Shown here one piece after another: positions 1 to 57,349 of a stretch of 64,000 nucleotides of DNA. Source of the DNA: Phlegmacium glaucopus. Its lineage: Eukaryota; Basidiomycota; Agaricomycetes; Agaricales; Cortinariaceae. Where the stretch lies: NCBI GenBank assembly GCA_015039465.1, contig MU130566.1:116335-180334 (forward strand). The letters are read 5' to 3'. Numbering within the stretch: the stretch's first letter is position 1; every line of letters starts with the position of its first letter. The notes beneath the pieces were generated by a model. The model did not search any database. It worked only from the letters and a program-made list of their open reading frames with translations, and was not told the origin of the DNA. The position numbers were made by a program, and so were the translations under genes.

Positions 1-1397
1 TGCCTTAAGTACCATCTCTAAGTCATGAAACGAGCCTCGGTAACCGTAACAGTTCGCTGCTTAGTCGACTATTTTAACTATACGGCTACGGAAGTCAAGG
101 TCTAACGTTTCGGCTTTCATCAGTTCCTGGACACGGCTCTTTTCTCAGGCTTAAGCCTGTTTCGACCGACCGTCATTAGCTAACCGCTAGTTTAGGTATC
201 CTTCCTATACCAGCGGAACCGTAACTGTCCGGTGGTAACTATTCATCACCTACGGTAATCATACTTGTTAGGCTTGTACGTGTAACAAGTTTCGTAGACG
301 GACGCCGTGTAGTAGCCGTTTCAGCCGTGACAGTAGCCGCGGTCCGTATCCACCATTTATCCGACCATCCGGTCGGTATAGTAGTAGACGTAGGACGGGC
401 TGTAGTAGTAGTAGTGGCAGGTACAAAAGTATCAGGAGTAATTTGAGTAGGTTATGTAGAGGAAGACGGACGAAGACGGCCTCTCTAAGGTCTATTACTT
501 CCTTATCTAGTAGTGGACAGCAAAGTAAGACGCGACTTGCATAAGGAAACAAAAGAAGTAGATGTAGGTTGTAAACTTGTAGTAGGGTACTTAGGCGATG
601 GCTACCATTAGGGCTCAGCCGGTCACGGCTAGGGTTAGGCCATGTAGGAGGACCTACGGTTTGTAGAACAAGCGGTAACAGGAAGACATGGACCTTAAAA
701 AGATCTATCAGGGAAACTTTGCAGTCTAATAGCGTATCGGGCTAAGGACGTACTACGGCCTGGTTTTATATCCACGGCTGGAGGGTCTCACGACGGGCTG
801 CCTTTACACACGGTCAGGTTGCAAGTTATGCTACGTTTCCCGACAGGGACACTCATACGGCGTACGTTGAGGTTGTGTGGCCCGCCCGGTCGCACGTTAG
901 ACATGTGGAGGTCTCCCGGGTCAACAAGTTACACGTCACCCTCGTGAAGACAACTAGTTAGCCGGTACGAAGAGCCCTGTTTACGCGAACCTCTTCTAAC
1001 AGTTACGCCAGCTGTTTAAACTCTTGTATTAGAGAGACAGAGATCGTATTACCGAACAAAAATTCATACTATAACTACAGTGTTGAGAAATAGTGTGGAA
1101 GAAAACGAAGCCGACTTACTTCGTTAGGAGGTCACCCAGAAGTATTGACCTAAGTTTCCACTTTCCTCACCAAGATCCCTAGCCACCATGAAGACACCTA
1201 TGTGACCTAAGCAATCCGTTTCCAGACTCTCCCTGGAAGTGCGCGAAACAGTGATCCGGGGACGAACATTCATAGAGTTAGAGAAGTACACAGTGACATA
1301 GATAACATAGTAGTAGCAGAAGTGCGTCACTGCCTAACGGAAAAAAGCTTGCGGAGCCAGCGAACATACGTCAGTGACATCCGACCACCCTTCAGTA
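1..1397. other. N-terminal half of a CxC2/KDZ transposase, written in reverse without complementation
   Basis: Neither strand of this block encodes anything sensible in the normal sense. Reading the printed bases from 1397 down to 1 without complementing gives an ATG (1397-1395), 100 open codons, a 56-base GT...AG intron (1097 down to 1042), then 347 further codons with no stop up to base 1. The protein has the CxC2 cysteine cluster (CSHC..WRCTDC..CWSCMRH.H..PLHRIERW), the block FRRAALWEVGTYILVRH, an acidic stretch, and the KDZ segment LLPASFVRIRTLFSAQVLDY, ending in LYHEFR. The normally oriented half downstream resumes at the same place (EFRRMSRLW at 1530). CxC2 is known as a domain fused upstream of KDZ transposases in basidiomycetes. 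The right boundary lies somewhere between 1398 and 1538. The block may run off the left edge of the window. An assembly or file artefact is the likeliest cause. Confidence 0.92.
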
Positions 1398-1529
1398 CCC
1401 TTTTGTGATAGCGCTCTGTTCCATTGTACTATGTATTATATTGTATACCCAAACACAAGGTCTAGAGCATTATCCTCTAACACAGGAATGTAAAGATGGG
1501 AGTCGGGACAGATTGTCGGCTCTCTATTT

Positions 1530-3914
1530 GAATTCCGACGGATGTCACGTCTGTGGCGTTGGAAGAAGAAGATCAAGTGGGCAGGATATGGCCACACTGG
1601 CCAGGACCCTAAGAATCCTCCCCGGGCCAAAAACTCTAACTTTTGTCCTGCGTGCCCTCAACCAGGCGTCAATTTAGCAGAGAATTGGAAGGATGATGTT
1701 AACCGGCAAGTATTCGTTTGGTTTGATCGTTGAGGAATTAACAAGTAAGCAACACAGTTTTGTTTACAAACGGACCTTTGTGGCCGATGGGAATTTCAAA
1801 GCCGATCATATTCGCCAAAAGAATCCTGAGGGTGATGTATGGCTTTGCGATGGTTCAGGGATGATGCCTAATCGTCAGGAATATTTTGACTTTCTGAAAC
1901 GGGCCCAGGAAAAATCAACAGTAAGCATGAGAGTATGCAATGCCGATGCCGATGCTGGACTCACTTTCCATCCTAGAAAGCTCCCTGTGAAAGTACATTC
2001 AGAGCCATAACCAATGCCTTGCGGGGATCAAAGGCATGTGACATTACAGGCATCGTCGGCATTGCATGCGCACGGCATGGCTGCTATGCGCCAAATGCTT
2101 TGGTGGACTTGTTCAAAGGAGAACAACAAAAGAACGTGGACTTTGCCTTTTTACAGGCGCTAAAAACGACTTCTGTATCCCCAGAACAAGGTGTCATGCT
2201 CATTTATGACATTGCGTGTCAATATTCTGTGCATCTACACAAGCGAATTGGCCACGAACTGCCATTCGGCCTCAGTGTGGATCATGCGATTGGCCTGTTC
2301 CATGTTCATTGTCATAAAGATGAATGTTTCTTCAGATTTGCACCTTCATTCATACCAGGCCTAGGCATAGTTATAGGTGAAATCCTGGAGTCACTCTGGT
2401 CAAATCTTAATTCTATTTCCCCCACAGTCCGAACCGCGACCTTGCCACATCAAGCCGAGATGCTAGACGACCATGCCAGTGACTCTAATCACAAGAAAGC
2501 ACTTGGAATAACCGACTCGTTAGTGGCCAGGTACTGGCATGCATCGGCAATGGCCGACGAGACCCAGACCTATTATCTCGAGATGACATCCATAGTGGAG
2601 GCTGAGAGAGTGAACACCTGGGAGGATGAAATATTGAAGGCCGAGTTAATGAGGGAGGCCGATCTGATGGTGATGGATATCTATCGTGCCCGAGTGCCCA
2701 ATCAATTGTTGGATGATACCTCATCAGCATCTGTATCGGGATCGGCTATGCTGATATCTCCCGTTCATCAGTGGATTCAGTTTGCCTTGATGGTGGAAGA
2801 GAAACAGTGAGTGCTTGGCGTTATATTGGCTCACACTGCTTACCAAGATACAGAATTGATGTCCAGGCCCGTGTTCAGCGACTCACCCGTGGGCCAACCG
2901 ATGCCAACGGTCAATCTATTGAACAGGAATGGGAAAAGTTAGTCCAGCTTTTAGTTAAGTTGAAGGAACTACAAGAGGCTGCCGGAATTCCAGAATGCTT
3001 TCCTTGCATTGCGATGCAAGAAGAGAGTGAGGTAGAGTTCGATATTGACATGGAGGCCGATATTGACAGGGAGGCCGACATTGATCCCTTGGCGTCAGCA
3101 TCAGCATCGGCAGCGCCGGTGATTTTGGATCCATCGGAGGATGTACCAATCCCAATTGAACGAAAGATAATTTCCCTCCCATCAAATGGAAATGTAGACA
3201 GTATTTTCAAGGCTGTTGAACTCCCTTTCAGGATTAACCAAGCAAAGACATATCTCAATCGGCTCCGGGACCTAATCTCTGAGAAATCATTTCGATATTC
3301 ACATGTCGTGCGGGCAGCTCCGAGGAAGTCAGTCAGGACACAGGCCCGAAAGACAATCTATTCATTGAACTGTAAAATTGCCCTGCATTCCTGGATATAC
3401 TCCAGATGCTGAGCCCGGCTGGTTACACTCGGATGTGACGAGGAGACATTGAACATATTTCGCGTTTTGACAAAGGAGGATGTAGAAGGAAGTACAGTGA
3501 TATTGAACCCCAATCTGCCTGGTTCAACCAAACTGCGGCTGTCATGGCTCTGGGGAACTGGTGGTCTTGCCGGCACCTTCGAAGCCGAGGTCCACCCCAA
3601 TGCCGATCATGCGACTGTTCTGGAATGTATGTTTTCTGCCACTTGTAACATTGCTCACTTATAGTGAATTAGTCAGGCGAGTTCACTGGCTGCGTGCTCG
3701 TGCACAGAAACACAGATGGCAAGAAGAACTCATTTTGGTTACATATGAAATGCAGTGGACAGTTTGTTACTTTGTGCAAGCTCGTGAGTGGACCTCGGGC
3801 CTGCCGAATGTCGATGTGAGCGCCGGTGCCAAGGCATATGCCGCTCGGCAGGAGACAATATGGCGAAGATTGGCATCGGCTGCTGATCGGGCCTTTCAGC
3901 AAGTTAATAGCTGA
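1530..3914 (+). pseudogene. KDZ transposase, carboxy-terminal part (one nonsense codon)
   Basis: KDZ-family DNA transposase, catalytic part. The exons that restore the family pattern are 1530-1709, 1750-1920, 1977-2806, 2848-3626 and 3673-3914, with introns of 40-56 bp. Visible motifs in order: EFRRMSRLWRW, CPACPQPGVNL, VADGNFKADHI, WLCDGSG, KACDITGIVG.ACARHGC, YDIACQY, GLFHVHCHKDEC.FRFAP, GEILESLWSNLN, LDDH.SDSN, then SWLWGT and VHWLRARAQKHRW near the end. An in-frame TGA at 3410-3412 sits in an otherwise conserved stretch (IYSRC*ARLVTLG). It is best explained as CGA to TGA at a CpG. The amino-terminal CxC2 half is found only as the reversed block at 1-1397. The copy is therefore not functional as printed, although only one coding lesion is visible here. 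Confidence 0.88.
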
Positions 3915-3989
3915 TATGTCTCACCACTGATCGGAATTATGTAATGTGAACAGGATCGAAACTCAGCTACACTCATCTCTACCAAACAC

Positions 3990-6900
3990 TTGTACCACAT
4001 GTCTCATATTCTTAACGCTTTTCACCCTTTTTCATTGCAATCGGGATCTCCACACAGGAATCATGTCAGATCGCAAGAAGTTATACACTATGGAGAGTCC
4101 AGATTCCGTCAAGCATTACTGATCATCAGCAAAGCAGATGCCGATATGCAACGATGGATGCAAATGTATCTTCAGTCTGAGTTGGCATGTCTTGGGTTGC
4201 ATATACTGGCATGATTACTGATGTTCCAACAGATGTTTGTCCTCTCCTATGTTGGTGCTGCCTTGGCTGTTGGGCAGGTCATCGATGTTCCCATCATCAT
4301 CCGATCTTTGGCCACTACTATGGCACATGTTGCTGAGGAACACTTGCCTATGGCCTTTCATCCTAATCTCCTCGCAGTATTGGACATCGGCACAGATAAC
4401 GACAAACCGACCTGCTTAGTTGACTCCTACGCTTTGGCATGGTGGAATTCCAATAGGCAGACTGCCCCTGACATGATTCTCAACACCAACAACCTAGAGA
4501 GGTGTCTGATGAAGCATCGGCAGAATAAATTGCTGGCTTCTCCGTATGAATCCAGTGACGTCCAGATGTCCCTTGACGAGGAAGACAGGCCGACTGATCT
4601 TGCTGGTCTCAGCGCTGATGACATGATAGCCGATATACCAAGTGCCAATGTGCCAATATCCGACATGCCGATTCACCTTGCGGACTGCCTCAGATGCCGG
4701 TCATTGGAGACATTAAGTCACAATATTTTGGCCGAGTTACATGGTATTCTTCAATTTGCAACTTCTATGGAAGTGTCCACGTCGAGCCGTTCCGATGTTT
4801 CCATGCGACGGGCCGCTGGATTTCATCTCCTTCATGAGCATGCCTTGTTGAAGGAATCAGCATCGGCACCAGTACCGGACGTCTCCACATCCTCATCCAC
4901 CTCTGCCCTCCACACCTCCAAACACATCAAACATCCTCGGACCACTAAGCAGAAGTCCCAACAAGTTACCCGTAATGCAACTGCTGAACTTCAAAGGCTG
5001 AGAAGCCTTCCTGCCAATTCCTATAAGTGGGTATGGGGGACTGATCTGACAGAGGCAGATGTGAGAAACATCATCCCCATAGCAATACAAGAGCAGGGGA
5101 TCCATTCGGGGTATAATGTTTCCTTGCCACATGGATGGCAGTTTGGCTATGACACTCCCACTGCATCGGCCCATGCATCGGCCCAGACTACCACCGCGGC
5201 CTTCACATCCCTTGCATCTGATATTGGAGTTGCCTCAAGCAATTCTTGATCCTGCTATGGCAGCCACCAACGCCTGGATGGCCTGTCAGCAGTCTGATGC
5301 AGAGATTGGACCATTCAATCCCGATGCCAATTTGGAGCCAGGATCCAATGCCGAATCCATGGCTGTTGCATTGACATCTCCAAATGCCGGGCCTATGCCT
5401 TGTGAGGATCCATTATCAAAGGCCGACGCATTGGCAGCAGCAGATGCCTGGCCTGTCAGTGAGTCCGAGGAAGCTAGTGACGAGTCTGAGCCCAAATACA
5501 GGGCCGAGGAGGAGATGCTGTCCAAAGCCGATGCATTGGCAGCGGCCAATGCATGGCCCGTTAGTGAGTCTGAGGAAACTACTGAACCAGGATTCCAGGC
5601 CGAGGAGGAGACATTGTCCAAGGCCGATGCATTGACAGCGGCCAATGCCTGGCCTGCCAGTGCATCCGAACCAGAGTCAGTGGGCAATCCTAAAGCTCCC
5701 ATATCAAAGGCCGATGCGTTGGCAGCGGCGAATGCCTGGCCTGTCAGTGAGTCCAAAGACACTAGTGACGAGTCTGAGCCAGAATACAGGGCTGAGCAGG
5801 AGACGCCGGCCAAGGCCGATGCATTCGCAGCGGCAAATGCCTGGCCTGTCAGTGAGTCCGAGGAAAGTAGTGCCGAGTCTGAACCAGACTTCCAGGCCGA
5901 GGAGGAGAGGTTGGCTAAAGATCCCATATCAAAGGCCGATGCGTTGGCAGCGGCGAATGCCTGGCCTGTCAGTGAGTCCGAGGAAAGTAGTGACCAGTCT
6001 GAGCCCGAATGCGGGGCCGAAGAGGAGACGCTGTCCACGGCGGATGCATTGGCAGCAGCCAGTGAATCCGAAGACACTACTCCAGAGGCACAGCCCGAAT
6101 GCGGGGCCGAAGAGGAGACGCTGTCCACGGCGGATGCATTGGCAGCAGCCAGTGAATCCGAAGACACTACTCCAGAGGCACAGCCCGAATGCGGGGCCGA
6201 AGAGGAGACGCTGTCCACGGCCAGTGAATCCAAAGACACTACTCCAGAGTCACAGGCCAATCCCTGCCCAGCTTCTGGCCATTCACCTACCAACAATGCC
6301 CAGGACGAGGCACTGGCAGCGGCAAATGCCTGGCCGATCGCCGATGCATTCGAGGATGACAGTGCCGACTCCAAGGATGCTTCCCAGGCTGAAGCCACCC
6401 TTGCTTCAACTGTTCATGCTCAGGTCTCATTGGCAGCCGCCAATGCCTGGCTCGTCAGTGATGAGTCTGAACACGACAATGCCGACTCCCACGCCACTTC
6501 CCAGGCTGATGCTGGATCACATGCCAATATTGGGCATGTGTCTAATGCTGAGGCCGATGCTTTTACTGCTGCCAATGCCTGGCCACTGGATGACGATTCC
6601 GATCATGCCAACGAGGTTACCGCCCTTGATGCAGCTGGGGCATGGCTGTATGCCGAGTCCGATGATGACCAAGTGGCTAACATCGGCCAAGATGCCGATA
6701 CCGCTCGCTCGGCCACTGCTGGACCAGACCCTCACTTGATCTCAGCCGAGGATGTCGCCAATGTCTGGCCTGATGACGATGATGATGAGGGTGAGAAGGA
6801 TGAAGAGGATGAAGTAGAGCAAGATGATGTGCATTCTGCTGGTCTGTTGAGCAGTCCCTCGGCAGCCACTGATTTACTCACGGCCCGGCTCAGTCAGATA

Positions 6901-7008
6901 ACCATTCCTCACCGTATCTATGGACCAGACGATTTTAGTTATGTAGATGAAAGCTGGTTGGTCGATGCGGATGATGAGGGTTCCGATTCAGAAGATTCTT
7001 TAGGATAG
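3990..7008 (+). CDS. Unrecognised second gene of the KDZ element, with acidic ADALAAANAWPVSESEE repeats
   Basis: Three consecutive open stretches follow the transposase: 3990-4214, 4221-5249 (342 codons) and an open frame from about 5250 to the TAG at 7008. The first two belong to unrecognised sequence (for example HPNLLAVLDIGTDNDKPTC; Ser/Thr/His-rich around 4,860-4,990). The third is a long acidic region built from about ten imperfect repeats of roughly 38 residues around the core SKADALAAANAWPVSESE, then an exactly repeated 90-bp unit (6007-6186), then an Asp/Glu-rich tail. The frame changes between about 5110 and 5250, and I could not assign a convincing intron, so a frameshift is equally possible. 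The high density of GCCGATGC words matches the transposase gene, so I infer that it belongs to the same element. I assign no function. Confidence 0.45.
6007..6186 (+). repeat. Exact tandem repeat, two 90-bp units
   Basis: The 90-bp unit starting GCCCGAATGCGGGGCCGAAG is present twice without a difference, and a third truncated unit follows. It encodes CGAEEETLSTADALAAASES.. in the repeat gene. Identity at the DNA level shows recent expansion. Confidence 0.85.
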
Positions 7009-11016: not shown

Positions 11017-11554
11017 GAGGTCTTTACTCTCCCCCACACATTCCGAGCAGATCCGAGCATTTTTAGAGTGTATTCCAAGCGGGATTTGCTCAGACCCGCT
11101 CGGATCTGCTCGGACTGCTAGGAATGGAACCTATATACCTCCCTAACCTTAACAAAGCCCTAACAAAACCTTAACAAAACCTTAACAAAACCTTAATAAA
11201 ACCTTAACAAACTATATACCTCCCTAACCTTAACACAACCTTAACAAAAACCTTAACAAAACCTTAACAAAACCTTAACAAATTAACAAAAACCTTAACA
11301 AAACCTTAACAAAAACCTTAACAAAACCTTAACAAAACCTTAACAGAAGTATTTTGCCAATAAATTTGTGTCTTATTTGCTTAGATCCACTTGGAATCTG
11401 CTTGGAATCTGCTTGGAATCTGCTCGGACTCTGCTCGGATCCGACCATTCCACTCGGAATCTGCTCGGACCTGCTCGGAATCTGCTCGGATCCACTCGGA
11501 CTGCTCGGATCCGCTCGGATCCGAGTGGAATGTGTGGGGGAGGGTAAAGTACTG
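11017..11554. mobile_element. hAT-type MITE with internal CCTTAACAAAA minisatellite
   Basis: 538 bp, flanked by the exact 8-bp duplication ACTAGCCG (11009-11016 and 11555-11562). The inverted ends share CTCCCCCACACATTCC (left) and its complement (right). Both subterminal zones are arrays of GCTCGGATC / CTGCTCGGA. The middle (about 11,145-11,345) is a tandem array of CCTTAACAAAA with small variations. No coding sequence was seen. Confidence 0.8.
11145..11345. repeat. Minisatellite (CCTTAACAAAA)n
   Basis: Imperfect tandem array of an 11-12 bp unit, CCTTAACAAAA, interrupted by two copies of TATATACCTCCCTAACC. It lies inside the MITE at 11017-11554. It resembles a telomere word only superficially. 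Confidence 0.85.
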
Positions 11555-13828: not shown

Positions 13829-16800
13829 TCAAGAGAGCGGAAGAGGTCCGGTTTTAGCCGGATAACTCTGGTGGAAATCAGCAACAAGTTCAGACGCGTG
13901 TCCTAATTCATTAGCTAGTAACCAGGAGGTTTCTTCGTTGGTACCTTCATAGCCAGACCACTTGACTAGGTACAGAAGTTTGCATACATGTCGTCTGTTA
14001 TCCAATTTAGAGTCCAAAATCTCGGAGACCTCAAATTCCTGCTCTCTGTCAATGACAACCGGAGGAGGTGGAGGTTGAGTACAATCCGGAATAGTGTTCG
14101 GAACGGAGGGCTCTAGCATGGAAACATGGAAGACGGGATGGACGGCACGCATGTTGTTGGGAAGACGAAGGGTCCAGGACAAAGGACCTGCCTGAGCAAT
14201 GATCTCATATGGACCAAGATACTTCTCGGAGAGTTTCTTTGAAGGTCTGGTCGTACGGAAGAATTGTGCTTTGACAAAGGCTCAATCTCCAACCTTAAAG
14301 TCCAGAGGAGGAATCTGACACTTGTCTGCGGAACATTGGTATTGTTCCTGGGAAGTAAGGATAGCTTTTTGGAGTTCCTCGTGGAGTTTGTTAAGGTCCA
14401 TAATGTACTTGTGAGCACGGGAGGAGACGAGGTTGTACTCTGGATGGATAGTGATAGCCGGATTGTAGCCTTTGTTGGTGAAGAACGGAGATACACTGGT
14501 AGTGGCACTCGGAGTATTGTTGTAGGAGAATTCTGCTAATGGGAGAAATGAACTCCAGTTGTCTTGCTGGTAGTTGCAGTTGATGCGGATGTATTGTTCC
14601 AAGGTTTGGTTAACGTGTTCCATTTGTCCGTCACCTTCCGGGTGGTATCCGGAGGTGAAGTGCAACTTCATGTCAAGGGCTTTTCCGAGGGATCTGAAGA
14701 AGTGAGATACAAACTCGGAACCGTGATTGGAAGTTACATGGGACGGAACACCATGCTTGGAAAACACGTGGATGACAAATAGTTCAGCAAGTTGAGCGGA
14801 AGTGATGGCATTGTATGTGGGGATAAAAATGGATTGTTTCATAAAACGGTCTACTACGACTAAGACCGCAGTGAAACCTTTGGAGTCCGGAAGGTGTTCA
14901 ATGAAATCCATGGAGATGGAGTCCCAGGGATGGGACGGAACAGGGAGTTGTTGGAGTAAGCCATAAGGTTTATGATGTTTGGCTTTGGACCGAGAACAGG
15001 TGGTGCAAGTCCTACAATAGTCAGTGACAAAAACACGAACACTGGGCCAAGTATACTCTCGACGGATAACCACAAGAGTTCTATTGACACCAAAATGTCC
15101 GGAGACAGGATGGTCATGATAATAACGAAGGACACGGAGACAAAGATCTCCGGAATCTGGAACATAGATCCGTTGATCAATCCGGATGAATCCGGAAGAG
15201 TCCTTTGACCATCTAGCATGCTTCGGATTGTCTAGATCCGATAAGTAGGACTGTGCAAGGGGATCCGTGGAAAGAGCGGAAAGAATCCCCTTGTTGAGCT
15301 CTTCGACATCCATGGTAAAGACACCACGGAGTACAGTGGGAAGCAATGAAGTAGCTTGGAGAGAAGCAGAAAGTTATTTGGAAGAAAAGATAGGTTTAAA
15401 ATTGTGTGGATTGACTTCACCGTAATCTTTCCCTCCCTCCTTTAGATAGAGGTCAGGACGTTGAGTCAGCGCGTCCGGCTTTGTTCCGAGACAGCCTGGG
15501 CGAAATCGAATAACCATGTTGAAAGCGGAAAGGTACTCTGACCACCGGGCTTGACGCTGGGATAAGATTTTGGTGGTCGAGAAATACTCTAGATTCTTAT
15601 GGTCAGTAACCACATCAATTGGGAAACTAGCACCTTCAAGGTAGTGACGCCAAGCTTTAAAAGCTTCAAAAATGGTGAGCAACTCCTTGTCGTGAACGTC
15701 GTAATTCAATTCCGCACCAGAGAAGGTATGAGAACAATATGCGACGGGATGGATTTCTCCATTGGAATCACAAATGGAAAGGATAGCTGCTAAAGTGTAA
15801 TCAGATGCATCAGTTTCAACAATGATAGGACAGTTAGGCTTCCAGTGTGTTAACACCGGAGCGGAAATAAAGCCTCCTTGAGAGTTTTAAAAGCAAGGTG
15901 ACAACTGTCATTAAAAACCCACGGAATATTTTTCTGGGTGAGACAAGTCAACGGAACCACAATATCGGAGTAGTTGTGGATGAAACACCTGTAAAAATTA
16001 GCAAAACCGAGGAAGGATTGGACATCTTTGACTTTCCGAGGTTCCGGCCAGTCTTGAATGACTTGGACTTTCGCCAGATCCATAGAAAGGCCATCAGGAC
16101 CAATCATGTGACCCAGGTACTCAACGGAATCGGAGTGGAAAACACATTTCTTACCATTAGCGAAGAGATTATTATCTTGAAGCCGTCGGAGGACTTCGGA
16201 GACATGTTTAATGTGATCTTTTTTGTTGATGGAGAAAATGAGGATGTCGTCCAGATAGATGATTACGAACACATCTAAAAGGTCAGCAAAAAGAGTGTTA
16301 AGGAATGTTTGAAAACCACCTGGGGCGTTGGTAAGTCCGAACAGCATGACAAGCCACTCGAAGGAGCCATAGCGGGTATGGAAAGCAGTCTTCCATTTGT
16401 CTCTGGCAGCAATGCAGACGAGATGGTAGGCATGCTTTAAGTCAATTTTAGTAAAGATCCCAGATTTGCGGGGAGCATCAAGTAAATCAGAAACAAGAGG
16501 TAAAGGATACTTGTCTTTCCGAGTGATGGCATTGAGTTTTCAAAAATCAACACAAAGCCGTAATGACCCGTCCTTCTTCATGATAAACAGGACAGGTGCT
16601 CCGAAAGGAGACTTTGATGGACGGATGAAACCCATGTTTAGGTGCTCGTCAATGAACTCTCGGAGCATACCCAACTCGGATTCGGAAAGCGGATAAATCG
16701 GACCCAAAGGGGGCTTCGCGGACTCATCAATTTCGATTTTTAAGTCATACTCTCGATGAGCCGCTAGGGTGTTGGCTTTACCCTTTGACAAGACATCCGA

Positions 16801-17508
16801 AAATTCGTGGTATATTTCCGGAACACCCTCCAAGTTGGAATTGGAAGGTGAGGAGGAGGCTGCCGTGGAACGGCTAGCAGCCTCAACTGGATCATGAACG
16901 GAAATGGAAAAGCATTGGGCTCCTTCTGAACAAATAGACCTCATGAAAGCTGCAGCAGACACTAAGGCAATTTTAGGAGCGGTCAGTGGTTTCGGAACAA
17001 ACGGAATAGAAGGTATTTCAACCTTTGTCTTCGCGGAAACCGTATCAGACATGGTAATGTCAGATACCGGAACGGGTGCCTTGGTGGAAACGGAAACGGG
17101 AACTGGAAGGATAACTATACAGTCTCGGAAAGTTACACTGCTATCGACCCAGTCAATCAACGGATTATGTTGGGTGAGCCAGTCAAGCCCAAGTACAGCA
17201 GGAAAATCAGAATCCAGCTTGGTTAATAAAAACCGGATTTTGTAGACGGAACCACAAGAGAAACGAACAGAAACAACGGTAGCATGTGTGATCATGCCCG
17301 GAGAAGAACCATCAATGAGACGGAGAGTCATAGGATTAATTGGAAAAATAGGACAATCATTGGACTTTGCGTAATGCTCATCCATGAAACAGTGAGTGGA
17401 ACCACTGTCAATGAAAGTGGAAAAATTGACATTCGGAAATTGAAGAGAAAGAAGGGAAACAAAAACTGCTCGGGTATCTGGAGAGATGCATTTAGAACTG
17501 CAACAAGT
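13829..17508 (-). pseudogene. pol: Gypsy pol: protease, RT, RNase H, integrase, chromodomain (broken)
   Basis: Minus strand. Protease active site DSGSTH at about 17,410. RT has [25 protein letters not shown] and the catalytic YLDD ([11 protein letters not shown]). RNase H has ETDASDYTLAA and DHKNLEYF. Integrase has the HHCC zone, MDFIEHLP, and YHPEGDGQ. The chromodomain (EFEVSEILDSK...YLVKWSGYEGTNEETSW) ends at 13829. Lesions: TGA after CVDF at 16540 (expected Arg CGA), a one-base frameshift near 15,855, TAA at 15374, and TGA after VGD at 14282 (expected CGA). The second integrase Asp motif reads TSNHGSEF instead of the usual TSDRGSEF, so a catalytic residue is lost. The nonsense lesions at 16540 and 14282 and the integrase change fit C-to-T at CpG. 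Confidence 0.92.
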
Positions 17509-17560
17509 TCAGCACAGGGGCTCTCGCAATTCACCATCTGTGCTGAGTCCAGTGAATTGC

Positions 17561-18580
17561 TTAGTCTTTTTTCTTCTCCGAACTGGAGTCCTTTGGCTTA
17601 GCCAGAATGGACTCGGAAGCAGAATCAGAAACAGTAGAGGCTTGGCCTTTAGCGGAGCTTGCCTTGGCAAGGTTACAGTCAGGAACACGATGTCCCACCT
17701 TGCCACAGAAAAGACAAAGTTTATTATCCATCCGGCATTGCCTTTCTTGCTGGGTAAGTCTACCCCACGAGTCCAGCTTGCCTTCTAGATTAGGTTTAGG
17801 AGGAGTGGAAGTGGAAGCCTTACCAGAGTCTGTGGGCTTAGCGGACTTTTGATCCGAAGGCCAAGACTGTTTACCGGAACTGGAAGAAGGGGTGGAAGAA
17901 GAGGGTATGGAGGAGGATGAAGAAGGGGTAGGACCCTTTGGAGGGTTTTGGCGTGGCTGCGGAGCGGGTTCCTGAGAATGTTCTTGCATATGTTCCCAGT
18001 AGCGAGCATCGGCATTTTGAGCTTTTTGACGCATCGCAGTTAAGGACCGGGGCTTGCCATCACCATTGCTAATTTCATCCTTGAGTTGGGAAGGTAAACC
18101 TTTGTAAAACCTATCCCTCAGAGCAGGCTTGCCCCAAGTACAGCGGACTGCCAAGGAGTTGAATCGGACTAAGTAATTGGAGATACGTTGGCCGTCCTTC
18201 ATTGGGAGATTGTTGAGGTTTGTGTTCTACGTTGGCGGACTCGTCATAAGGACCGAAGTTGGACTGAAGTTTGCTGACGAAGAGATCCCAATTTTCAAGC
18301 CAAGACAGAGGCTCATCGGTGAGACCGGACATTCCAGGTTCGAACCATTCCTGAGCAATGTCCCAGAGATAGGACAAAGCAAATGTTACTCGCTTGGAGT
18401 CATCTCGGAATGTGTCGGAAGAGCTCCGGAAATAGAGCCTGCATTTGTCTGTAGCCATCCGAGGTTCGTAGCCTCTTCGACTACATCGGGAATGGGAGTC
18501 TGCCTTGTAGGGGTGTTTTCGTGGGACATATTTTGTTGTATTGGTAATGGGGTTTTGGAAGTTTTAGAACGAGTTTGCAT
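17561..18580 (-). pseudogene. gag: Gypsy gag with CCHC zinc knuckle (one frameshift)
   Basis: Starts MQTRSKTSKTPLPIQQ at 18580, just inside the 5' LTR. The capsid-like part has FRDDSKRVTFALSYL and EWFEPGM. The second part, open to the stop at 17561, has ISNYLVRFNSLA, a Ser/Pro-rich linker and one zinc knuckle CLFCGKVGHRVPDC (C-x2-C-x4-H-x4-C). The reading frame changes by one base near 18,210 (an extra C before LNNLPMKDGQ), and further small breaks are likely near 18,390. The protease frame that follows is different and starts after a stop at 17509-17511. Confidence 0.85.
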
Positions 18581-18607
18581 AGGAGTGGGTGAGAAGTTCG
18601 AATATAC

Positions 18608-19187
18608 TGTTAAGTTTAGAACAAGGAAGTCACGTCGGAGTTACTCCAGAATGGACGGAACGGAACCGGAACAGTAAGTGGAAAGGATGTTGGCCTCAGC
18701 ATGTGTGCTGTGCCACCCAGCTCCTAAGGTGTCCTGATTTCGGAACAGAAGAAGAAGTAATAAGACGGAAGACCTCAGTGACTTAGAGGACGAACAAGAG
18801 GAGGAAACAAAGTTGATATTTGAACTGAGGGAAAACATACAAGTTTTGAGTACTTAAATAAATAAAGGAATAGCGACCGAAATATATAAAGATAAATATA
18901 AGTGCTGCGTTCTGCTCCTGGGAAGGTCCTGCATTCTTGGGTGAATAATCCATGGCGGGTATGCTGACTGATGGTGGGAAGGATGATGACAAAGAATAGT
19001 GGTAGTGGCAAAGAAGTGATAACAGGTTTGGAGTATAGACGGAGGAACCAGAATGACATGGAGAAGTCTCGGAGTTGAACATAGGAAGAGTAGTTTGGGA
19101 TATAAGGGAAGGCACTGTACAGAGTACGGACTACTGGAAACAGCTCTGACGGAGCCGGACCGGATTAATGTATAATGGAATGTAACA
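18608..19187 (-). repeat. 5' LTR of the Gypsy element
   Basis: 580 bp, TG...CA ends, collinear with 11934-12492. At one position each LTR shows a different decay product of the same ancestral CpG (GACATTGG in one, GATGTTGG in the other). Confidence 0.92.
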
Positions 19188-20777
19188 CCTTTCCCCCCTG
19201 CTTGTCAGATGTTATGCCTGCCAGGGCTGCTCCCAGGGCTGCTACCAAGGCTGCTAGGGCTGCTCCTAAGTCTCGTAAGGCTGGAAAATCTGCTATTGTA
19301 GTGCCTGCAGCTTCTGTAGCCCTTACTGATCATGCTGATCATGTACCACTGAACCCACCTGTTACTCCACCCCCACGGCCACAGGTCTGGGCACGTCAGC
19401 TCCAGTTTGAGACCCCAGGAGAGCACTTTCCTTCAGTATCCCCAGGCTCAAGTGATTCAGATGTAGGAATGCTTGTTACTGAGGATGTCTTTGCTCCTCC
19501 AGTCCTTATCTCACCCATCAAGCAACACCAGAGGCAAGCTGCTCCCACAATCAATCGGCTCACTGATCTGGAGGTCTGGGAGATGAGTGATGAAGAGATT
19601 GTTGGTACATATATTTGATAAACTTTATTACTAAATATAAATAAATGAATTCTTTAAGATGCAGCACAAATGTCGTGGAGATCTGAAGTATATGACCACT
19701 ACGACATTGGTCTGCGACGTGATTTTACTCCAACACGTGAACCCCTTTCTCTGACCCTGGTGTTCACCTGCAAAACCCATCCCCATCATCATCCATCTGT
19801 CTGAACTCGCTCACGGGGAAAAACAGGTGATGGAACAAGCAATCTGCAGAAGGACATTGATATGTGTTTGAGGAAGCAAGGCCGTGAACGTGTAAAACCA
19901 GAATCGGGGACTATTCCTTACTCTGAGCCAGCTCACTGTGCGCTTATTGCCCTGCGCTGTGCAAAAAATGCTTGTCCAATCAACTCTGTCCTTGACGATG
20001 ACTATAAGCTTGAGGTTGAAATGCTACAGCCTGGGACTAAGATTCCACATCCAATGACAGTTCAACGGGATTTGCTTTACATCTATGAGCAGGCTTCAAT
20101 TGCGGTGAAGAATTATTTTTTGGTGTGTTATTTTTATTGTAAAATTAAAAAATTGCTTATACATTGAATACAGCAACTGAATAGTACTATTCACCTTGCT
20201 CTTGATGGATGGACTTCCCCACTCATTTCCTCATACCTTGGTCTTGTGGTTGTCTGGTTTGACCAGGGAGTAATTCACCGAGCAATTCTAGAATTCATTT
20301 GGTGTGTTATGATTTATAATATATCATGATTTCCTTCATTCCTCACTTCTTTTTATAGCTTAACCCAAAAACATGATGGACGGTATCTGGCCACTGTTAC
20401 AGCTGATTGCTTGAAACGGTTTGGTCTTGATCAACAGGTAAAGAAAATAATGTTGTCTTCTAAAATATAATTATATTGTTATTTTTATAGCTACTTGGTA
20501 TATGCATGGATAACACTAGTAATTGCAACAAACTCGCAGAGTTGCTACCTGACTATATTCCTACATTCCAGGGTATGGATGCACGACTGTGATGTTTGAC
20601 CCATATACTTAATCTCGTTGCAAAAGTAACAAGATTTATTATCATTAAGCAGTTGACTAATTATTTCTATCTAGATCTTCATTTCTTTCTTTTTCAAGAA
20701 GCCAAAAGTGAAGAAATCTGTCACAATTCCAGCAGATAATCACACCAGTGAGGGGGAGGTGGTTGTGGATCCTGGGG

Positions 20778-21362
20778 NNNNNNNNNNNNNNNNNNNNNNN
20801 NNNNNNNNNNNNNNNNNNNNNNNNNNNNNNNNNNNNNNNNNNNNNNNNNNNNNNNNNNNNNNNNNNNNNNNNNNNNNNNNNNNNNNNNNNNNNNNNNNNN
20901 NNNNNNNNNNNNNNNNNNNNNNNNNNNNNNNNNNNNNNNNNNNNNNNNNNNNNNNNNNNNNNNNNNNNNNNNNNNNNNNNNNNNNNNNNNNNNNNNNNNN
21001 NNNNNNNNNNNNNNNNNNNNNNNNNNNNNNNNNNNNNNNNNNNNNNNNNNNNNNNNNNNNNNNNNNNNNNNNNNNNNNNNNNNNNNNNNNNNNNNNNNNN
21101 NNNNNNNNNNNNNNNNNNNNNNNNNNNNNNNNNNNNNNNNNNNNNNNNNNNNNNNNNNNNNNNNNNNNNNNNNNNNNNNNNNNNNNNNNNNNNNNNNNNN
21201 NNNNNNNNNNNNNNNNNNNNNNNNNNNNNNNNNNNNNNNNNNNNNNNNNNNNNNNNNNNNNNNNNNNNNNNNNNNNNNNNNNNNNNNNNNNNNNNNNNNN
21301 NNNNNNNNNNNNNNNNNNNNNNNNNNNNNNNNNNNNNNNNNNNNNNNNNNNNNNNNNNNNNN
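20778..21362. other. Assembly gap (585 N)
   Basis: Run of N between hAT transposase segments. ORFs that cross it have no meaning. Its size may be an estimate. Confidence 0.99.
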
Positions 21363-21589
21363 ATTTCTTCTAATTTTTTTGATTGCTTTTTAAAGATCTA
21401 ACTTTGCTTTTCTCTCAAGCAGAGGTTCCCCATATTGTGGATGCCCTTCCTATGTTATTCTATCTTCAGGAGAGTTTACAGGCTGTTGTTGAGGATCAAG
21501 TCCAGAACACTGAGGATGACATCTCTGACATATCCTCTTCTGGTGATTCGAAGGTCACTGCGGACAGTCAACATTAAAGTAAGCAGGAG

Positions 21590-22670
21590 ATGATGAACAT
21601 GCTGGTTCCCTGCCTTTGTTTTTTTGCATTTTTGGCAGCGACGTCGCTCTACGTCGCCTCTTACACCGACTATTTGCTGTTTTATTGCATAGATAAGTCT
21701 CTGGCTATTCGGTCGTCGCCCCTACTGTCCCAGAAGATTCCTAAATGCCTTGGCTATATTTCGCTTGTATGATTGCCCCCTTTTCTGGCAGTACCCGGAC
21801 GACATTAGGTGTTCTGCCTCCCTTTCGCTCCCTTTCACCAGCGGTCATGTGTATAGTCATGCTTTTTCCATATTTGGTAACGCTCACTTGTCTAAGAGTC
21901 GTAGGCATGTCCACTGCCCAGACCGACGTCCCCTTATGCTACACCAAATTGTTCTGTGTCGAATCATTGTTGCTACCCTACCAGTCGCCCCTATCCAGCA
22001 ACAATCACCAGATCAAGAAGTTCCTTAACACCATTGGGTATTTTGGGTCGCTGATCATTTATATTCTTTTATTTCTCTTCGGTTACCTCAAACACTTTGT
22101 TTCCTTTATTTTTGATACATCTACCATCGCTCCTTGATTGCCTCTCTATACCACATGTCTCCTGCCAGCCCTCGGAGCGACAACCGGTCCTCTTTCATTT
22201 ATCACCCACTATCCCTGATGTTTTGTCTCCCCATTTTGCCTAGTCCCTCTTGGACTCCTGTTTCATCATTTTGATTTGTTTTATAGATACCCATGTGCAA
22301 CTTAGCCATGTGATCTCCTCTACCTACTATAAAAACCTCCTGTAATTTAGTTACAAAGGACAATAAGAAAGTATTTGCCTCTCTCCCCAGAGTATAGAAT
22401 TAAGTCTTGTCATTGTCTCTCTCTCGTTGTTCGCCTTCGTTTCATTGCGTTTTACTGCGAGTCGCCCATACAGCGACTATACTTCGTCACTGCATCGCCT
22501 CCTTCATCACTGCGTCGCCACTTCGTTGCCCTTTCGTCATTACATCGCTCCTCATTTCACTCGTCTCATATCTCGTCGCCCTACCTTAGTTGGAACCTTT
22601 CTGCATATACTTGACTCAGTGTTTAGGCCACCAAAGCCCCGAGCCGCATCACACCTCAGTTAGTACAGCA
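21590..22670 (+). mobile_element. LTR-like insertion inside the hAT transposase gene
   Basis: This stretch separates two parts of the hAT protein that are normally near each other (VPHIVDALPMLFYLQESLQ and VLTVYHRIAAHAGVLLINKY). It is rich in CGTCGC words, contains CTACTATAAAAACCTCC (TATA box at about 22,327) followed by a CT-rich leader, and ends near CAGTTAGTACA, which together look like U3-R-U5 of a solo LTR. I could not find a clear target duplication, so the edges are approximate and the class (Copia or Gypsy) is open. Confidence 0.55.
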
Positions 22671-24226
22671 CCTAGCGTACTGACAGTGTATCACCGGATT
22701 GCTGCTCATGCTGGAGTTTTGTTAATTAACAAGTATATGGACTTAACATGGGATTGTGAAATCTATGTTATCGCACTTGGTGCATTTTATTTTTCTTTCT
22801 TATCTAATTTAATTGCTAACATCTCTACACAAGTTATGTGCCCTGATCGGAAGCTTCAGTGGCTGAAAGACCGTGTTTCATCAGAACGGTTAAAGGAGAT
22901 CAAAAAGCTGGTAGTAAACCGATGGTCAAAATCTTATGCATCTGCACAGTCCCAGATTCCAGTCATAAAGAAGACAACCAAGGTAGTATAATTTCTAAGC
23001 CATAAATTCAAATATATTCGTACTCTAAATTCTAGGAAAAGTCAAAATGGGCTGCTCCCACATCTTCTGGCTCCAGCAAATATCCTCTTGACTCCATTCA
23101 GGCATATTTTTCAGAAAGTATTGTCCCCTCACACCTCATTACAGAAGCAGGAGGATATATAACATATTGGTATCAACTACAAAACAGTCAACCTAGCCTT
23201 TCAAGAATGGCACAAGCATATTGTTCAGCACCAGGTTAGATTTATCTACCATCCAGAAGCCCTTCTAATTTTTTCCTTGTTTCCAGCAACCTCTGTTGAT
23301 GCAGAACGTGCATTCTCAACTGGTCATCATCAAGTAAATTACATGCAACACAATATGAGCTCACAAATATTCAAGGCACGTGTAGCAATTGGTTCATGGG
23401 CTAAAACTCCCATATTTCCCAAATTTTCAGATATTGCAGCAATGGTGGCGTCACGCATGGGTGAAGATGTTTGAAATTGAATGAATATATAATAAACTTG
23501 TACTATATTTCCATTTTCTCAAAGACTCAGACTCCAATTGTTTGTAATTAGCATATAAATGAATAACCCTGTTCAAGAGCTTCCAAACACACCCAGATTC
23601 AAGCAAAATGGATAAGAATTGACCAACATAGCTCTTGAGTGCAGAATTCTCACAGATCTATCCAGATCGTGCTGATCCAAACCATATCCGAACTGTATTT
23701 GGCACAATCTGCAGTTTGGTTATGGATTTGGTCCGGATCTATCCATGTTAGTCCCTAGTTATGTGTAACAGTTTCATATTTCAATGTCATGTATTCCTTG
23801 TACATTCATAACATCTTCTGAGCATTGCTCTCTGTATGTTGTGCGATCTCCATATTGTGTGATAGATATTGTGCCCCTAATCTGCTGTGTTGTAATACAA
23901 TGGCTATATATACATTAATATGTTTTTACTATTCCACCAATGACAATTCCACTTACCTGCATTGTATATTTTAACTGCTCATTGAGTGGGGATTTTATTC
24001 TGTGCAATTTAAGCAGTCAATTCATCAATTCTCCTCATGGAGACTCCTCAACCCCTCCTCCTTTGACTTCCCTTTCTCTAACTTCCCATTCAACATCTTC
24101 TGTTTCTTCTCTAATCTCGCCTCCAACTTCCCAACCACCTTTTTCCCTTGCCTTCCATAAGTCATTGATTGCACAGTATTGATGGTGGCTGTTACAGCGA
24201 CTATAAGCTTGCACTCGCTATAAATT

Positions 24227-25496
24227 GTTGTTGTTGTTGTATATGAACACCAACCAGAGAGCAGTGGACCAGACCTTAGGTCAAGAGACTCCCTGTTGTT
24301 TGTTTAGGGAAGGTATAACCTTGGCTTGTATCACACAGAGGTAGGGGGTGAGAATAGAGATGAGAAGGATGAGGATGAATGAGAAAGAGTCTTCAGTAAG
24401 ACTATAGCAGTAGACAGTATGGACAGGTTGACAGCTAAGGGTAGAAAAAGCGAACTTAGAGGGAGGAATTCACTGGAATTCCACTGAGAAGACGACTGTT
24501 GGGGAGTAAGAATGAATTGAGATGAACTACCTATCCTGGTACAAAAGAGCAGTATTTATACCTAAGGATGGGGCTATGTAGAACAATAAAAAAAGAAAGA
24601 AGTACACGCTGTCAGAAGAAGAATGAAGAGAGGACAGCTGCGAGAAGAAAAGAACAATGGAAAGGAAGAAGGAACAATAAAAAAATCTGTACAAGTGTCA
24701 AAGTGTGAGAGAAAAGAAAAGAAGGCAGTGCGCATAGCCCAATAGCAAAAATATATCGACTCCATAGGTGTGTGGTCATGTCAAAATATGAAAGGTCCTG
24801 AGTCAACACTTGAAAGGTGCAGCCTTGTTCCTGAGAAAATACTACTTGCCCATGATCCCATGTTGCGCAGCCTTGATAACACTTGACACTCTGCGAGAAT
24901 AATCCTCTGCTGCTGATTCATCTGCAATTCCTGCTTAGTTGTGATCCTCCTGGACTTCCTAAATTGTCATAAAGAGGGTGGGAAGGTTTCAGGTACCGTG
25001 TGAATGTTGGTTTTGGCAGTGAATGATAAGATAAGAGGTAGATAATTGAGGATAGGGGACTGAGTGCGATCCAGGAGCAAGGTATGGCAAGATAGATAGC
25101 TGAGGCGAAGACTTGTGGGTCCATAGCCACAACAATGATGACAAAGCCTTTGCAGGCCGTTCTTGAAATGATGGGCCAAAGATACGATCAAACCCGAGCT
25201 GATGACCGATGCAAATAGTAGATTGATCGCTTTGTTGTATCACTAGCCAAGGAAAAAATGGATGGTAGATATTAAGGAGCATGTCGATAGTGTAAATGAT
25301 TGAGAGCATAGTGGAAGACATTGAGGATATGATGAGCGATGAGGATGATAATGTTGAACAAATGATTTTATTGACCAGGAACACAATTCAGGGCTGATTC
25401 CAAAATAGGTAAGTGAATTCAAAGTCCGCTTATTTTCATGATGGCAACTTTTAAGCTTTGTTCTCACGCTACCAATCAGTATTGGTGCGCGATACT
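24227..25496 (-). repeat. Left arm of a large inverted repeat (LTR-like)
   Basis: About 1.27 kb matching the complement of 27,207-28,607 over most of its length, for example ATGAACACCAACCAGAGAGC at 24,242 and CCAATCAGTATTGGTGCGC at 25,472. Contains a TATAAATAC-like box in minus orientation. ORFs of 60-130 codons in both arms are not protein-like. Confidence 0.75.
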
Positions 25497-25611
25497 GAGA
25501 ACTGGACTGACTACCCAAAATCTTTGGACTGAACTGAACTGAACCTGAACTGACGGTTCAGTTCTATCAGTTCTCAGTTCTTGTGCCAGTTCGGAACCGA
25601 ACTTTGGCATC

Positions 25612-25735
25612 ACTAAGGAGAATCCCAGCCATTGTTTTTAGACCCGATGTAGTGTATGCAATAGGGATACTGTCAAAATTTATTCAAAATACAGGCAAAG
25701 CGCACTGGGAAGCACTGAAAAGAGTCATGGTTTTA
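25612..25735 (+). pseudogene. Copia reverse transcriptase remnant
   Basis: A short stretch reads RPDVVYAIGILSKFIQNTGK followed by AHWEALKRVM, the well-known segment at the RT/RNase H junction of Ty1/Copia elements. It is cut off on both sides and lies between the two inverted LTR-like arms, so the arms may derive from the same element. Confidence 0.75.
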
Positions 25736-26786
25736 CCTTTTTGGTTGGTTCGGTATTTGTTCTGTTATACACACTGCAAATACAAGGGCCCCATTAATAG
25801 GAGGTAGATTGAAACAGAGCAATATTGGTTGTTTTCAGGTTGTTTTCAATTTTCAATGGTGCATTTGAAGGCTAACAATTCCCTCTTTCAGGATCTGGTT
25901 TTACCCTTTTGGTCGGTTTGGTATTTGCAATCCTCATCACCCTCAATCCTCGTTATCCTCATTACCATCTATACTTTCTGGCTATCTTACCTTATTTACA
26001 CCCCATCTCTCTATATAACAACTATATCATATCATATCATATCTAACCCAATACCCAATACCCAATACCCCAAATGTATTCTTTTTATGACTATATTCAA
26101 CCACTGTTCTGAGATGGCCTATAGACTGCCAGAGTATTATTAATAGCTTTTGGATGCTTTGAGATGCCTTGGGACACCTCCAGGGTCTGTAAAAGCATTA
26201 AAAGCAATAAATTGTCTATTTAATAATAATATTGCCATCTTTAGGGCCTGCTTGGTTGACCTGAGACACCCTGGGATGCTCTAGAGCTCTGTGGGAAAAT
26301 TTGGCAGAAAGAACCTTGCCCTGAGAGCAATACAAGATGCCCTGAGTGCTTTGATGCCCTGAGTGCCTTAGGGCATCCCAAGGCACCTACGGGGTCCTGG
26401 GAAGCTCCAGGGCTAAACTGCTTTTTTCTGATGTTATTTCTGTGATAAGTGCTTTGAAAACATGCATGTGCACCCCAAGTTCATTGTGGATACACTCAGG
26501 GTGTCCATTGAGGAGTTTGATGACCCAGTCTGCACCTAAGAGGGCTGATGTATGATATGAAATTTTGTTGTAAAATGGATCAGCATAGATTAAAGCAGCA
26601 GTAGTGATGATATGAGCAAGAGTAAAAGCTACTAGGAGCTTTTGCTTCTTGAGGACTTGATACCACACCAGCGTTTTCTACATCCTGATGCAGAGAATAA
26701 AATGATAGGTGATGCAGAGACAGCACTCATGTTGAAATTGACAGAGGAGGGGATGAAGAGTGGGCAGCTTTATTTGCAGGGGGCCA

Positions 26787-27152
26787 CTGTTATGAATGTC
26801 TGGTACGCACATGGCCCCCTCTTCTTTTTCTCCCCTTTCTTTACTGTACATTACATCTTTCCTCATTGTTCCCTTCTTACACCACCCTTTCCCCAAGTTA
26901 CCCTTTGCCCTGAACCCTCCTTGTACTATATATAACCATCGCTCCCACTCTCCTTATCTCTGACTTGTACCGACTTGTACCTAGCACGGACCATGGGCAC
27001 TGCCCCTATCTCTGACTCGTACCCTTACTATATAAGAGCCATACCCATAGCTATAGTTCTCTAGTTTAGACCTTCTGTATCCCTATGGTATTAATCTACA
27101 CAGCTTGCTCAGAACCTCTCAGACGTCTAAGTCTCCCTTGTGATAACGACTA
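26787..27152 (+). repeat. Probable solo LTR
   Basis: TGTTATGAATGTCTGGTACG at the left, a pyrimidine-rich stretch, ACTATATATAACC and TACTATATAAGAG TATA-like boxes, and GATAACGACTACA at the right give an LTR-like layout with TG...CA ends. I found no target duplication, so limits are tentative. It directly abuts the right arm of the inverted repeat. Confidence 0.4.
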
Positions 27153-27206
27153 CAGTTGTATATAAGTCCCTAGTTACTTGGTCTATCGGCCCAGCACCGA
27201 ACACGA

Positions 27207-28607
27207 TATCGCGCACCAATACTGATTGGTAGCATGAGAACAAAGCTTAAAAGTTGCCATCATGAAAATAAGCGGACTTTGAATTCACTTACCTATTTTG
27301 GAAGCAGCCCTGAATCGTGTTCCTGGTCAACAAAATCATTCATTCAACGTTAACATCCTCATCACTCATCATATCCTCAATGTCTTCCACTATGTTGTCT
27401 ATCATTTACACTATTGACATGCTCCTTAACATCTACCATCCATTTGTTCCTTGGCTAGCGATTCAACAAAGCAATCAATCTACTATTTGCATCGGTCATC
27501 GGCTCACATTTGATCACATCTATGGCCCATCATTTCAAGAACGGCCTGTTTATGGACGCATCAGCTACATCTCCCATTATGTCAAAGGCTTTGTCATCAT
27601 TGTTGTGGCTATGGACCCACAAGTCTTCCCCTCAGCTATCTATCTTGCCATACCTTGCTCCTGGATCTCACTCAGTCCCCTATCCTCACTCATCTACCTC
27701 TTATCTTATCATTCACTGCCAAAACCATCATTCACGCGGTACCTGAAGCCTTCCCACCCTCTTTATGACAATTTAGGAAGTCCAGGAGGATCATGACTAA
27801 GCAGGAATTGCAGATGAATCAGCAGCAAAGGATTATTCTTGCAGAGTGTCAAGTGTTATCAAGGCTGTGCGACATGGGATCATGGGCAAGTAGTATTTTC
27901 TCAGGAACAAGGCTGCACCTTTCAAGTGTTGACTCAGGACCTTTCATATTTTGACATGACCACACAGCTATGGAGTTGATATATTTTTACTATTGGGCTA
28001 TGCGCACTGCCCTCTCTTATTTTCTCTCACACTTTGACACTTGTACAGATTTTTTACTGTTCCTTTTTCTTTTCCATTGTTCTTTTCTTCTCGCAGCTGT
28101 CCTTTCTTCATTCTTCTCCTGACAGCACGTACTTCTATCTTTTTTTATTTGTTTTACATAGCCTCATCCTTAGGTATAAATACTGCTCTTTTGTACCAGG
28201 ATAGGTAGTTCATCTCAATTCATTCTTACTCCCCACAGTCATCCTCTCAGTGGAATTCCAGTGAATTCCTCCCTCAAGTTCGCTTTTTCTGCCTTTTATC
28301 TGTTTCTGTCCCCTACTGTCAATCACTATAGTCTTGCTGAAGACTCTTCCTCTATCATCCTCATCCACATCCTCTACTCCCTTCGCTTTTTCAGCCTTTT
28401 ACTTGTCACTGTCCCCTACTGTCAACTGCTGTAGTCTCACCAAAGACTCTCTCATATTCATCTTCATCCACCTCTATTCTTGCCCCTTGCCTCTGTGTGT
28501 TAAAAGTCAAGGTTATACCTTCCCTAAACAAACAACAGGGAGTCTCTTGACCTAAGGTCTGGTCCATTGCTCTCTGGTTGGTGTTTATATACAACAACAA
28601 CAATAAT
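27207..28607 (+). repeat. Right arm of the large inverted repeat (LTR-like)
   Basis: About 1.4 kb. Begins TATCGCGCACCAATACTG, contains a promoter-like GGTATAAATACTGCTC at about 28,172 and a CT-rich leader, and ends GGTTGGTGTTTATATACAAC. It is the inverted counterpart of 24,227-25,496, slightly longer through small insertions. Confidence 0.75.
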
Positions 28608-28609
28608 TT

Positions 28610-30260
28610 ATATTGGTTCTGACATTTCTAAGATTTTGAGAACCAGGTTTGAACCAGTTTGAACCAAACTTTCTGTCACTATTTTTTTATAAATTTTCCA
28701 CGCAGAAATGAATTTATAATATAAAATATTGTTATGAGGTGCCATTGTTATTAGGTGCCATACCTGATGATTTGGGAGTCGGGGTTTGAAAAATCTCATC
28801 AAAGGATTTTATAGCATGTATTATAAGTTAATCAAAACTAAAGGCCAGCCTCGGCTGTAGAATAGAAGAGAAATCATATAATATTAAATAAAACTAAGTC
28901 ATAATATAAAACTACGTCAATTGTATAGCGCGTCGTCCATTTGTTTGTCATTGGTTTGTCATTGTTGTTTGTCCACATTGACCTTGAGAAAACAAAATGA
29001 GGGTCTAAGTGACCTCAACCGGCCAACAAGTAAGCAATCAGTAAAAAGGGACAGTAACAAACATTCCGGTGTGAAAGATACATTACATAGTAGCATAAAA
29101 AGGAATATGATACAAGCTCACCTCTATCCACCATGATGCTTGGAAATCGCGGTGGTATGAGTCACAGGATCATTCATACTTGAGGTATTTTGGAATGCTA
29201 CTAGCCCAGAAAGTAATGAATTAATTGAGACAAGTTTTGTGTGGTAGAAACACTTACAGGGCAAGTACGAGTCACAAAACCTTCCCAAGAATGCTTGAAC
29301 AAGATCAGAGCAGCATTGTTGCTTGTTCATCGACATTTGTTTGTTGTAGTTGCTGTTCTTTCATTGTAGTCGTTGTTCATATGTTGCAATGGTTATTTGT
29401 TCATTGTAGTTCTGTTGTTGTAGTTGTTGTTCTTTTGTAGTCATCATTTGTTTGTTGTAGTCATTATGCGTTCATTGTAGTTATTGTTCATTCATTGTAG
29501 TACTTGTTCTTTTGTAGTCATTGTTTGTTTGTTGTAGTTGTTATGTATTTGTTGTAGTTATTGTTCATTTGTTGTAAACAACCAGCCACCATAGTGGCTG
29601 GTAAGCATGTTCGGAGGGCGACAAGCAAGGCAAGAATGCAGAAAGGAAATTCAGGAAAATTCTTTGAGAAAAACTTTATTGGTGAGTCGTTTTCTCTATT
29701 CATTCTTGATGACTACTAACAGATATGATTGCTTTTAGTGGATTCACCCACCCCTTCCGGGTCTAGCCATTTTTTCAAGAAACACTTCATAGGTAGGATT
29801 TTATTTATTGTTCTTACGGATGAGTATTGATGTATAGCTCTGATTTAGTGGGCTCACCTAATGCTTCTGGCTCTAAACATGCAAAAAAAAGTGCGTATGA
29901 TTTGTAATTATCCTATTAAATTTTATTAACACAGCCTGTAGGCCCCCCCAAAGTCTCGAAAATGTGCCACATCATCTGTAAATGCAATAAGTGCTGCCAA
30001 ACGAAGAAAGCCAAGCCAGCACATCACCAAGTAAGCTTGTGTTCATCAAAGCAACTCAAAATTTCTACATTTTCAGCAACTGCAACATGCTGGAATGTGA
30101 ATGGGGCCTTTTCTACATTGTTGCCATCAGCAAGTTTTGCCATTGGACATGTGATCCAATATTGATGTGGTTCACCCATAAATAATATTCTCCCCCTCTC
30201 TCAAAAAAAAGAACATTTACTGATTGACTATATAATTTCAAGCCACCCAAGCCACAGCAT
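28610..30260. other. Intergenic, AT-rich, with a TTGTAGTT-type tandem array
   Basis: No gene that I can support. At about 29,320-29,575 there is an irregular array of TTGTTGTAGTTGTT / CATTGTAGTTATTGTTCATT words. Short exon-like pieces around 29,600-30,040 (PTPSGSSHFFKKHF, CHIICKCNKCCQTKK) could be remnants of a zinc-finger-containing transposase but are too short to assign. Confidence 0.5.
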
Positions 30261-30265
30261 GAGCT

Positions 30266-30832: not shown

Positions 30833-31110
30833 GAGCTGCAGCTCACAGCTTTCAAAAGTACAAGCCCAAGCCATGGGCCATCCAGGCTGTCACCCGAGGC
30901 TTACCAGCAGTGGCCCAGCTCAGCTTACATTGCTAATAACAGCAACTGAGTCCAAGCAAGAATTGATGATTTCATTTCACCAGGAAATGACAAAGAAAAT
31001 AGTACATCTCATGTTTACAAACTATTTCATCCAGCTGATCTTGGAACCGAGCTTCCAGCATCTCCATCTGCATCCCTCACCACCTTTCCAAGTTGAGGAC
31101 AGGCTCAGAT

Positions 31111-52659: not shown

Positions 52660-57147
<4,488 letters not shown>

Positions 57148-57349
57148 CGTGGTTGGTGGTAGTAGAACGCGGGGCTACGTGACGCGTGACGGGACGCGCT
57201 GTGAACAGGCGGACCGGCGGTACCCGGCACAGCAAAGTTACTTGGACAATGGAGAAGGTTTTAAACCTTGGTTTACCATTCATAGCACTGGGTATCCAAA
57301 ATTTGAAAAAGAGGTAGAATAGAATAATAATAAAAAACATGCTCAATGG

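Follow-up and report, generated by a model that had tools for sequence, protein, structure and literature searches.

We found that the first 1,528 bases of the window (the whole stretch of 64,000 nucleotides that was analysed) are written as the plain text-reverse, uncomplemented, of the 5' part of a CxC2-KDZ transposase gene, and that this block as printed is a recurrent assembly error and not real biology. The window comes from Phlegmacium glaucopus (Cortinariaceae, taxid 171480), which we take to be the same species as Cortinarius glaucopus, and corresponds to positions 116335–180334 of contig C200 in a 60.5-Mb genome of 259 contigs; it was identical to the genome copy over its first 5,166 bases, the entire stretch compared. 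A run of 19,247 N (C200 97088–116334) ends at the base before the window, and the mirrored block (window 1–1528, assignable to neither strand) abuts its right edge. The right limit of the block, about 1528, is uncertain by about 10–40 bases, homology to a copy on contig C26 being clear to 1490. An earlier note on this DNA had recognized the mirrored text and extended it to 1538; the forward text was found to begin at 1529.

Read backwards without complementing, the block contains a first exon from 1397 down to 1098 (100 codons, with its ATG at 1397), a 56-bp GT...AG intron from 1097 down to 1042 and a second exon from 1041 down to 1 (347 open codons, with CxC2 at about 46–288), the exon and intron lengths being counted by eye from the reversed text. 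This is the gene structure that the earlier note had read from 1397 to 1. The longest open frame of the block was 347 codons in the reversed text vs 90 as printed, 157 in the reverse complement and 192 in the plain complement, and the largest among 2000 Markov-1 random sequences was 246. As the transposase half is written backwards, the printed block lacks a long frame. A search with the reversed translation, which the earlier note had proposed as a check, identified CxC2 (PF18803) in reversed exon 2 (E 1.4e-16; 61 bits vs a cut-off of 27) and 455 protein relatives at E ≤ 0.001, of which the best, among the best 120 listed, was 53% identical over 98%. Besides, the start of the mirrored gene is the start of the public protein P0131, which is placed on a contig as long as C26. 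The same note had seen both CxC2 and KDZ in the reversed half; only the first is there, and the KDZ transposase domain (PF18758) lies in the normally written half, at about 1983–2489 on the + strand (E 3.8e-39; 135.1 bits vs a Pfam cut-off of 26.6). Read backwards, the block is an ordinary member of the CxC2-KDZ transposases of Agaricomycetes (PF18803, PF18758), with a copy of roughly 95% identity on C26; it is unlike them in that half of the window copy is printed backwards and shows no long frame as printed. No public protein identical to the KDZ half of the window was found among 7995 scored candidates whose length was about 0.55 to 1.75 times that of the query, the closest being 80% identical among the best 120 of 286 matches listed.

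The copy on C26 of the same genome is written in normal order. The reversed window text matched it at 95.2% over 1031 bp and at 96.4% over 334 bp. The best score against C26 was 1631 bits for the reversed block vs 24.7 bits for the printed block, both strands being searched, and 200 random sequences reached at most 31.0 bits; on these scores, the probability that the block is accounted for by chance or by an ordinary repeat, whether inverted or palindromic, is practically nil. Inversion, transposition and inverted repeat were likewise rejected, as the printed text is unmatched to C26 on either strand. The junction was in register on C26: in locus L012 (C26:104000–113500) the block ends at position 3809 and the forward text starts at 3802, with an 8-base overlap, GAATTCCG. 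These bases are the first of the normally written flank (1529–1536, + strand) and also form the end of the reversed block (bases 8–1, reversed). The earlier note had expected a codon-perfect junction upon re-reversal; the alternative that it offered beside this, two separate copies, is superfluous and was rejected, since C26 shows a single copy in order with the junction in register. The normal remainder of the transposon copy (1529–5518, + strand) is collinear with C26 in pieces of 93–97% identity, with extra C26 DNA in two places. The C26 copy is without 124 bases that are present in the window block (at L012 2778/2779) and has about 1.3 kb extra inside (L012 3899–5218). The public gene model of this copy, P0131, is short and diverges from the window frame near its end.

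The window block is not the only one of its kind. When the mirrored DNA was used as printed to search the genome, relatives turned up first on C190 and C247 and later on C120 and C171; eight mirrored blocks, window included, were characterized on C200, C247, C190, C120 and C171. Mirrored KDZ blocks are located at C247 84437–86469 (flush with a 100-N run, 86470–86569), C190 64097–~65237 (flush with an N run, 60324–64096), C120 ~95705–97.8 kb (flush with an N run ending at ~95704) and C171 ~55028–57159 (interior, with no adjoining N). A second C190 block, ~67781–69063, has no adjoining N; its 171-aa reversed reading matched no Pfam family, and it is therefore defined by k-mer score only. The same artefact was found in a different element: the block at C200 ~12.0–15.446 kb, left of the N run 15447–31194, encodes in its plain-complement reading a Plavaka transposon (PF18759, E 1.5e-67, with DUF6830, E 1.7e-52), and four further mirrored Plavaka matches, known by location only, lie on C51, C73, C129 and C226. 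On the opposite flank of the window's own gap, C200 ~95.9–97.087 kb, left of the N run 97088–116334, has a 403-codon frame in the plain complement vs 112 codons as printed and 80 and 64 in the other readings; the 403-aa product had no Pfam match above the cut-off and one below it. Genome searches with mirrored text returned 5 KDZ and 5 Plavaka rows (the query itself in each) vs 26 and 18 with normal text, a rough ratio only, since the queries were of unequal length and some of the normal rows are split or very short matches.

In all five KDZ blocks (window, C247, C190, C171 and C120), the KDZ matches of the reversed block and those of the printed flank shared both relatives and strand, among the best 7 rows listed per class. 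The printed text is therefore the plain reverse of what is expected, not its complement. A plain complement in place of a plain reverse, and a complement fault tied to upper or lower case over a whole scaffold, were both considered and rejected, as the strand test was against them in 5 of 5 KDZ blocks. By alignment coordinates, reversing the block restored order with the relatives in each of the five. The coordinate joins were exact or within about 10 bases in three of them (893|892 on L003 for C190, 2702|2699 on L008 for C247 and 3809|3802 on L012 for the window) and merely approximate at C171 and C120. At C247, the 99 bases right of the 100-N gap are the text-reverse of the first 99 bases of the block (99/99, 100% identical), and this gap would probably have closed, had the insert stood in normal order. 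In the C120 block, one additional mirrored match, to the DNA that the C26 copy has in excess, lay on the opposite strand; an inserted element may have an orientation of its own.

The blocks could also be recognized independently of homology. For each tested stretch, excluded from the training data, a 6-mer Markov model was set against that same model applied to reversed text, and the resulting mirror score was 96.5 for the window block, 145.7 for C247, 121.6 for C120, 152.5 for C171, 114.6 and 53.9 for the first and second blocks of C200, and 65.9 and 75.4 for C190, where the segment scoring 65.9 runs across the N run. The largest background score on C200 was 9.2 in 818 overlapping 400-bp pieces, C200 itself being in the training set. 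Outside the window, some segments scoring at least 15 are probably false or ambiguous, i.e., L026 3027–3664 (26.0), L001 2696–3618 (22.6) and a pair in L025, on the right-hand side of the first C200 gap (33.6 and 19.1). Within the window, an ACCGGT-rich segment at 31609–32188 that resembles an ordinary repeat scored 34.4, and an array of CCTTAACAAAA-like units at 11119–11351, also repeat-like, scored 21.6.

N runs lie beside 6 of the 8 blocks (on both sides of C200 97088–116334, on the left side of C200 15447–31194, and at the C190, C247 and C120 runs given above), and the remaining two (C171 and the second of C190) are interior, with no N in the surrounding stretch fetched. When 11 edges of N runs were scored over 400 bp, 6 were mirrored, 1 was ambiguous (5.8) and 4 were normal; the 6 mirrored edges, two of which score only 3.7 and 11.2, are also backed by homology or an open frame. 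These edges are a biased sample and give no unbiased rate, since C190, C247 and C120 were chosen for their mirrored matches and C200 for the window.

The mirrored text almost certainly arose by reversal at an assembly step of one kind or another, and the most probable form of this error, which we consider likely, is that gap-fill sequence was inserted reversed and uncomplemented. After scaffolding, gaps would have been filled in part or in full with sequence assembled locally, and some of these inserts would have been written with their letters in reverse order but uncomplemented; the resulting text would be the same as that obtained by complementing a minus-strand insert and forgetting the reversal. 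The window insert would have been added at the right edge of the 19-kb gap, inside a transposon copy, and for this reason the 5' part of the transposase would read backwards. The two interior blocks are perhaps closed gaps. The earlier note had held a file, assembly or planted anomaly to be the likeliest cause, and an assembly error indeed fits best: the block is flush with the run of 19,247 N, the fault recurs and 6 of 8 blocks are at N runs. Another assembly step, such as a scaffolder, a consensus caller or a finishing script, is an unlikely source of the reversal but one worth naming, as N is absent beside the two interior blocks, 4 of the 11 scored N edges read normally and the responsible program is unproven; against it, the 6 of 8 blocks at N runs and the 99/99 overlap spanning the C247 gap fit gap extension.

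The text is present and recurrent in the genome, which could speak for real DNA, copied or joined by an unknown biological process in reversed order and without complementing. DNA strands are antiparallel, and no polymerase or ligase is known to work in this way. Six of the eight blocks are at assembly gaps, and, when reversed, the C247 block exactly matches the sequence just beyond its gap; we therefore regard such a process as extremely improbable. That no known inversion or transposition gives mirrored text, as the earlier note put it, agrees with established knowledge; software can produce it.

The mirrored text might also have been planted, or introduced downstream after public deposit, and be absent from the public record. 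The window's 801-aa gene lies on a public contig of 368,213 bp, whereas C200 as analysed here has 360,611 bp (7,602 fewer), ten further public contig sizes match none among the contigs compared, and no public protein shows the mirrored text among the best 120 of 286 matches listed. However, four contigs have the same size as in the public list (C26, 195,469; C193, 391,751; C227, 209,823; C228, 406,426), and a plant of this kind would be strange, with blocks on several contigs, some adjoining N and others interior, and a 99/99 match spanning one gap. We consider an origin after deposit very improbable, and a deliberate plant unlikely.

With regard to the program behind a reversed gap-fill insert, we lean with modest confidence towards PBJelly or a wrapper round it. 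In the accessible sections of a study that covers ectomycorrhizal fungi, Cortinarius glaucopus among them, ALLPATHS-LG was the assembler used, and PBJelly served to patch those assemblies that were hybrid (PMC7550596); the accessible sections of a second paper using this genome do not mention PBJelly (PMC8480192). According to the accessible text of English et al. 2012 (PMC3504050), where a gap is too large to be closed PBJelly lengthens its flanks inwards; consensus sequence is spliced in, and in a closed gap it takes the place of all Ns. Such extension into gaps fits the gap-edge blocks and, by inference, the interior blocks; unlike the blocks, a reversed, uncomplemented insert is absent from that part of the description. 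Our literature search found no report of a gap filler that writes reversed, uncomplemented inserts.

The mirrored stretches are unusable as printed. At these blocks, gene ends would be wrong, transposase copies would be overlooked and sequence would seem unique to users of the genome. The blocks are invisible to ordinary similarity search, and a cheap check finds them once they are looked for. Other assemblies may carry the fault as well, if they too went through this step. More tentatively, and we think this possible but doubtful, the fault could be general: a published gap-filling pipeline may have written part of its inserts backwards, and public genomes may hold unnoticed mirrored blocks of kilobase size, mainly in transposon-rich gaps. 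If this were true, gene models, repeat counts and synteny would be distorted, and a homology-free k-mer mirror score could find the blocks. A mirrored 16S rRNA motif had no occurrence in contigs of 84,980 prokaryote species, a result that applies to prokaryotes only and has no bearing on fungi; the motif works as a probe, because its forward form matched at least 119 stretches in the same contigs.

Several other features were observed in the window. A 585-N gap is present at 20778–21362, and both of its 400-bp flanks score as normally written. Downstream of the transposase, a 641-codon frame (5083–7005, + strand) contains many copies of a motif like SKADALAAANAWPVSESEE. Open frames at 14282–17508 (− strand) are LTR retrotransposon-like and presumably resemble integrase and protease or reverse transcriptase parts of such an element. 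The gene at 49079–51484, with 48104–49027 (both on the − strand), is 100% identical over 801 aa to BYT27DRAFT_7114103 of Phlegmacium glaucopus, relatives of which, with MYND-finger Pfam entries, occur in many Agaricomycetes.
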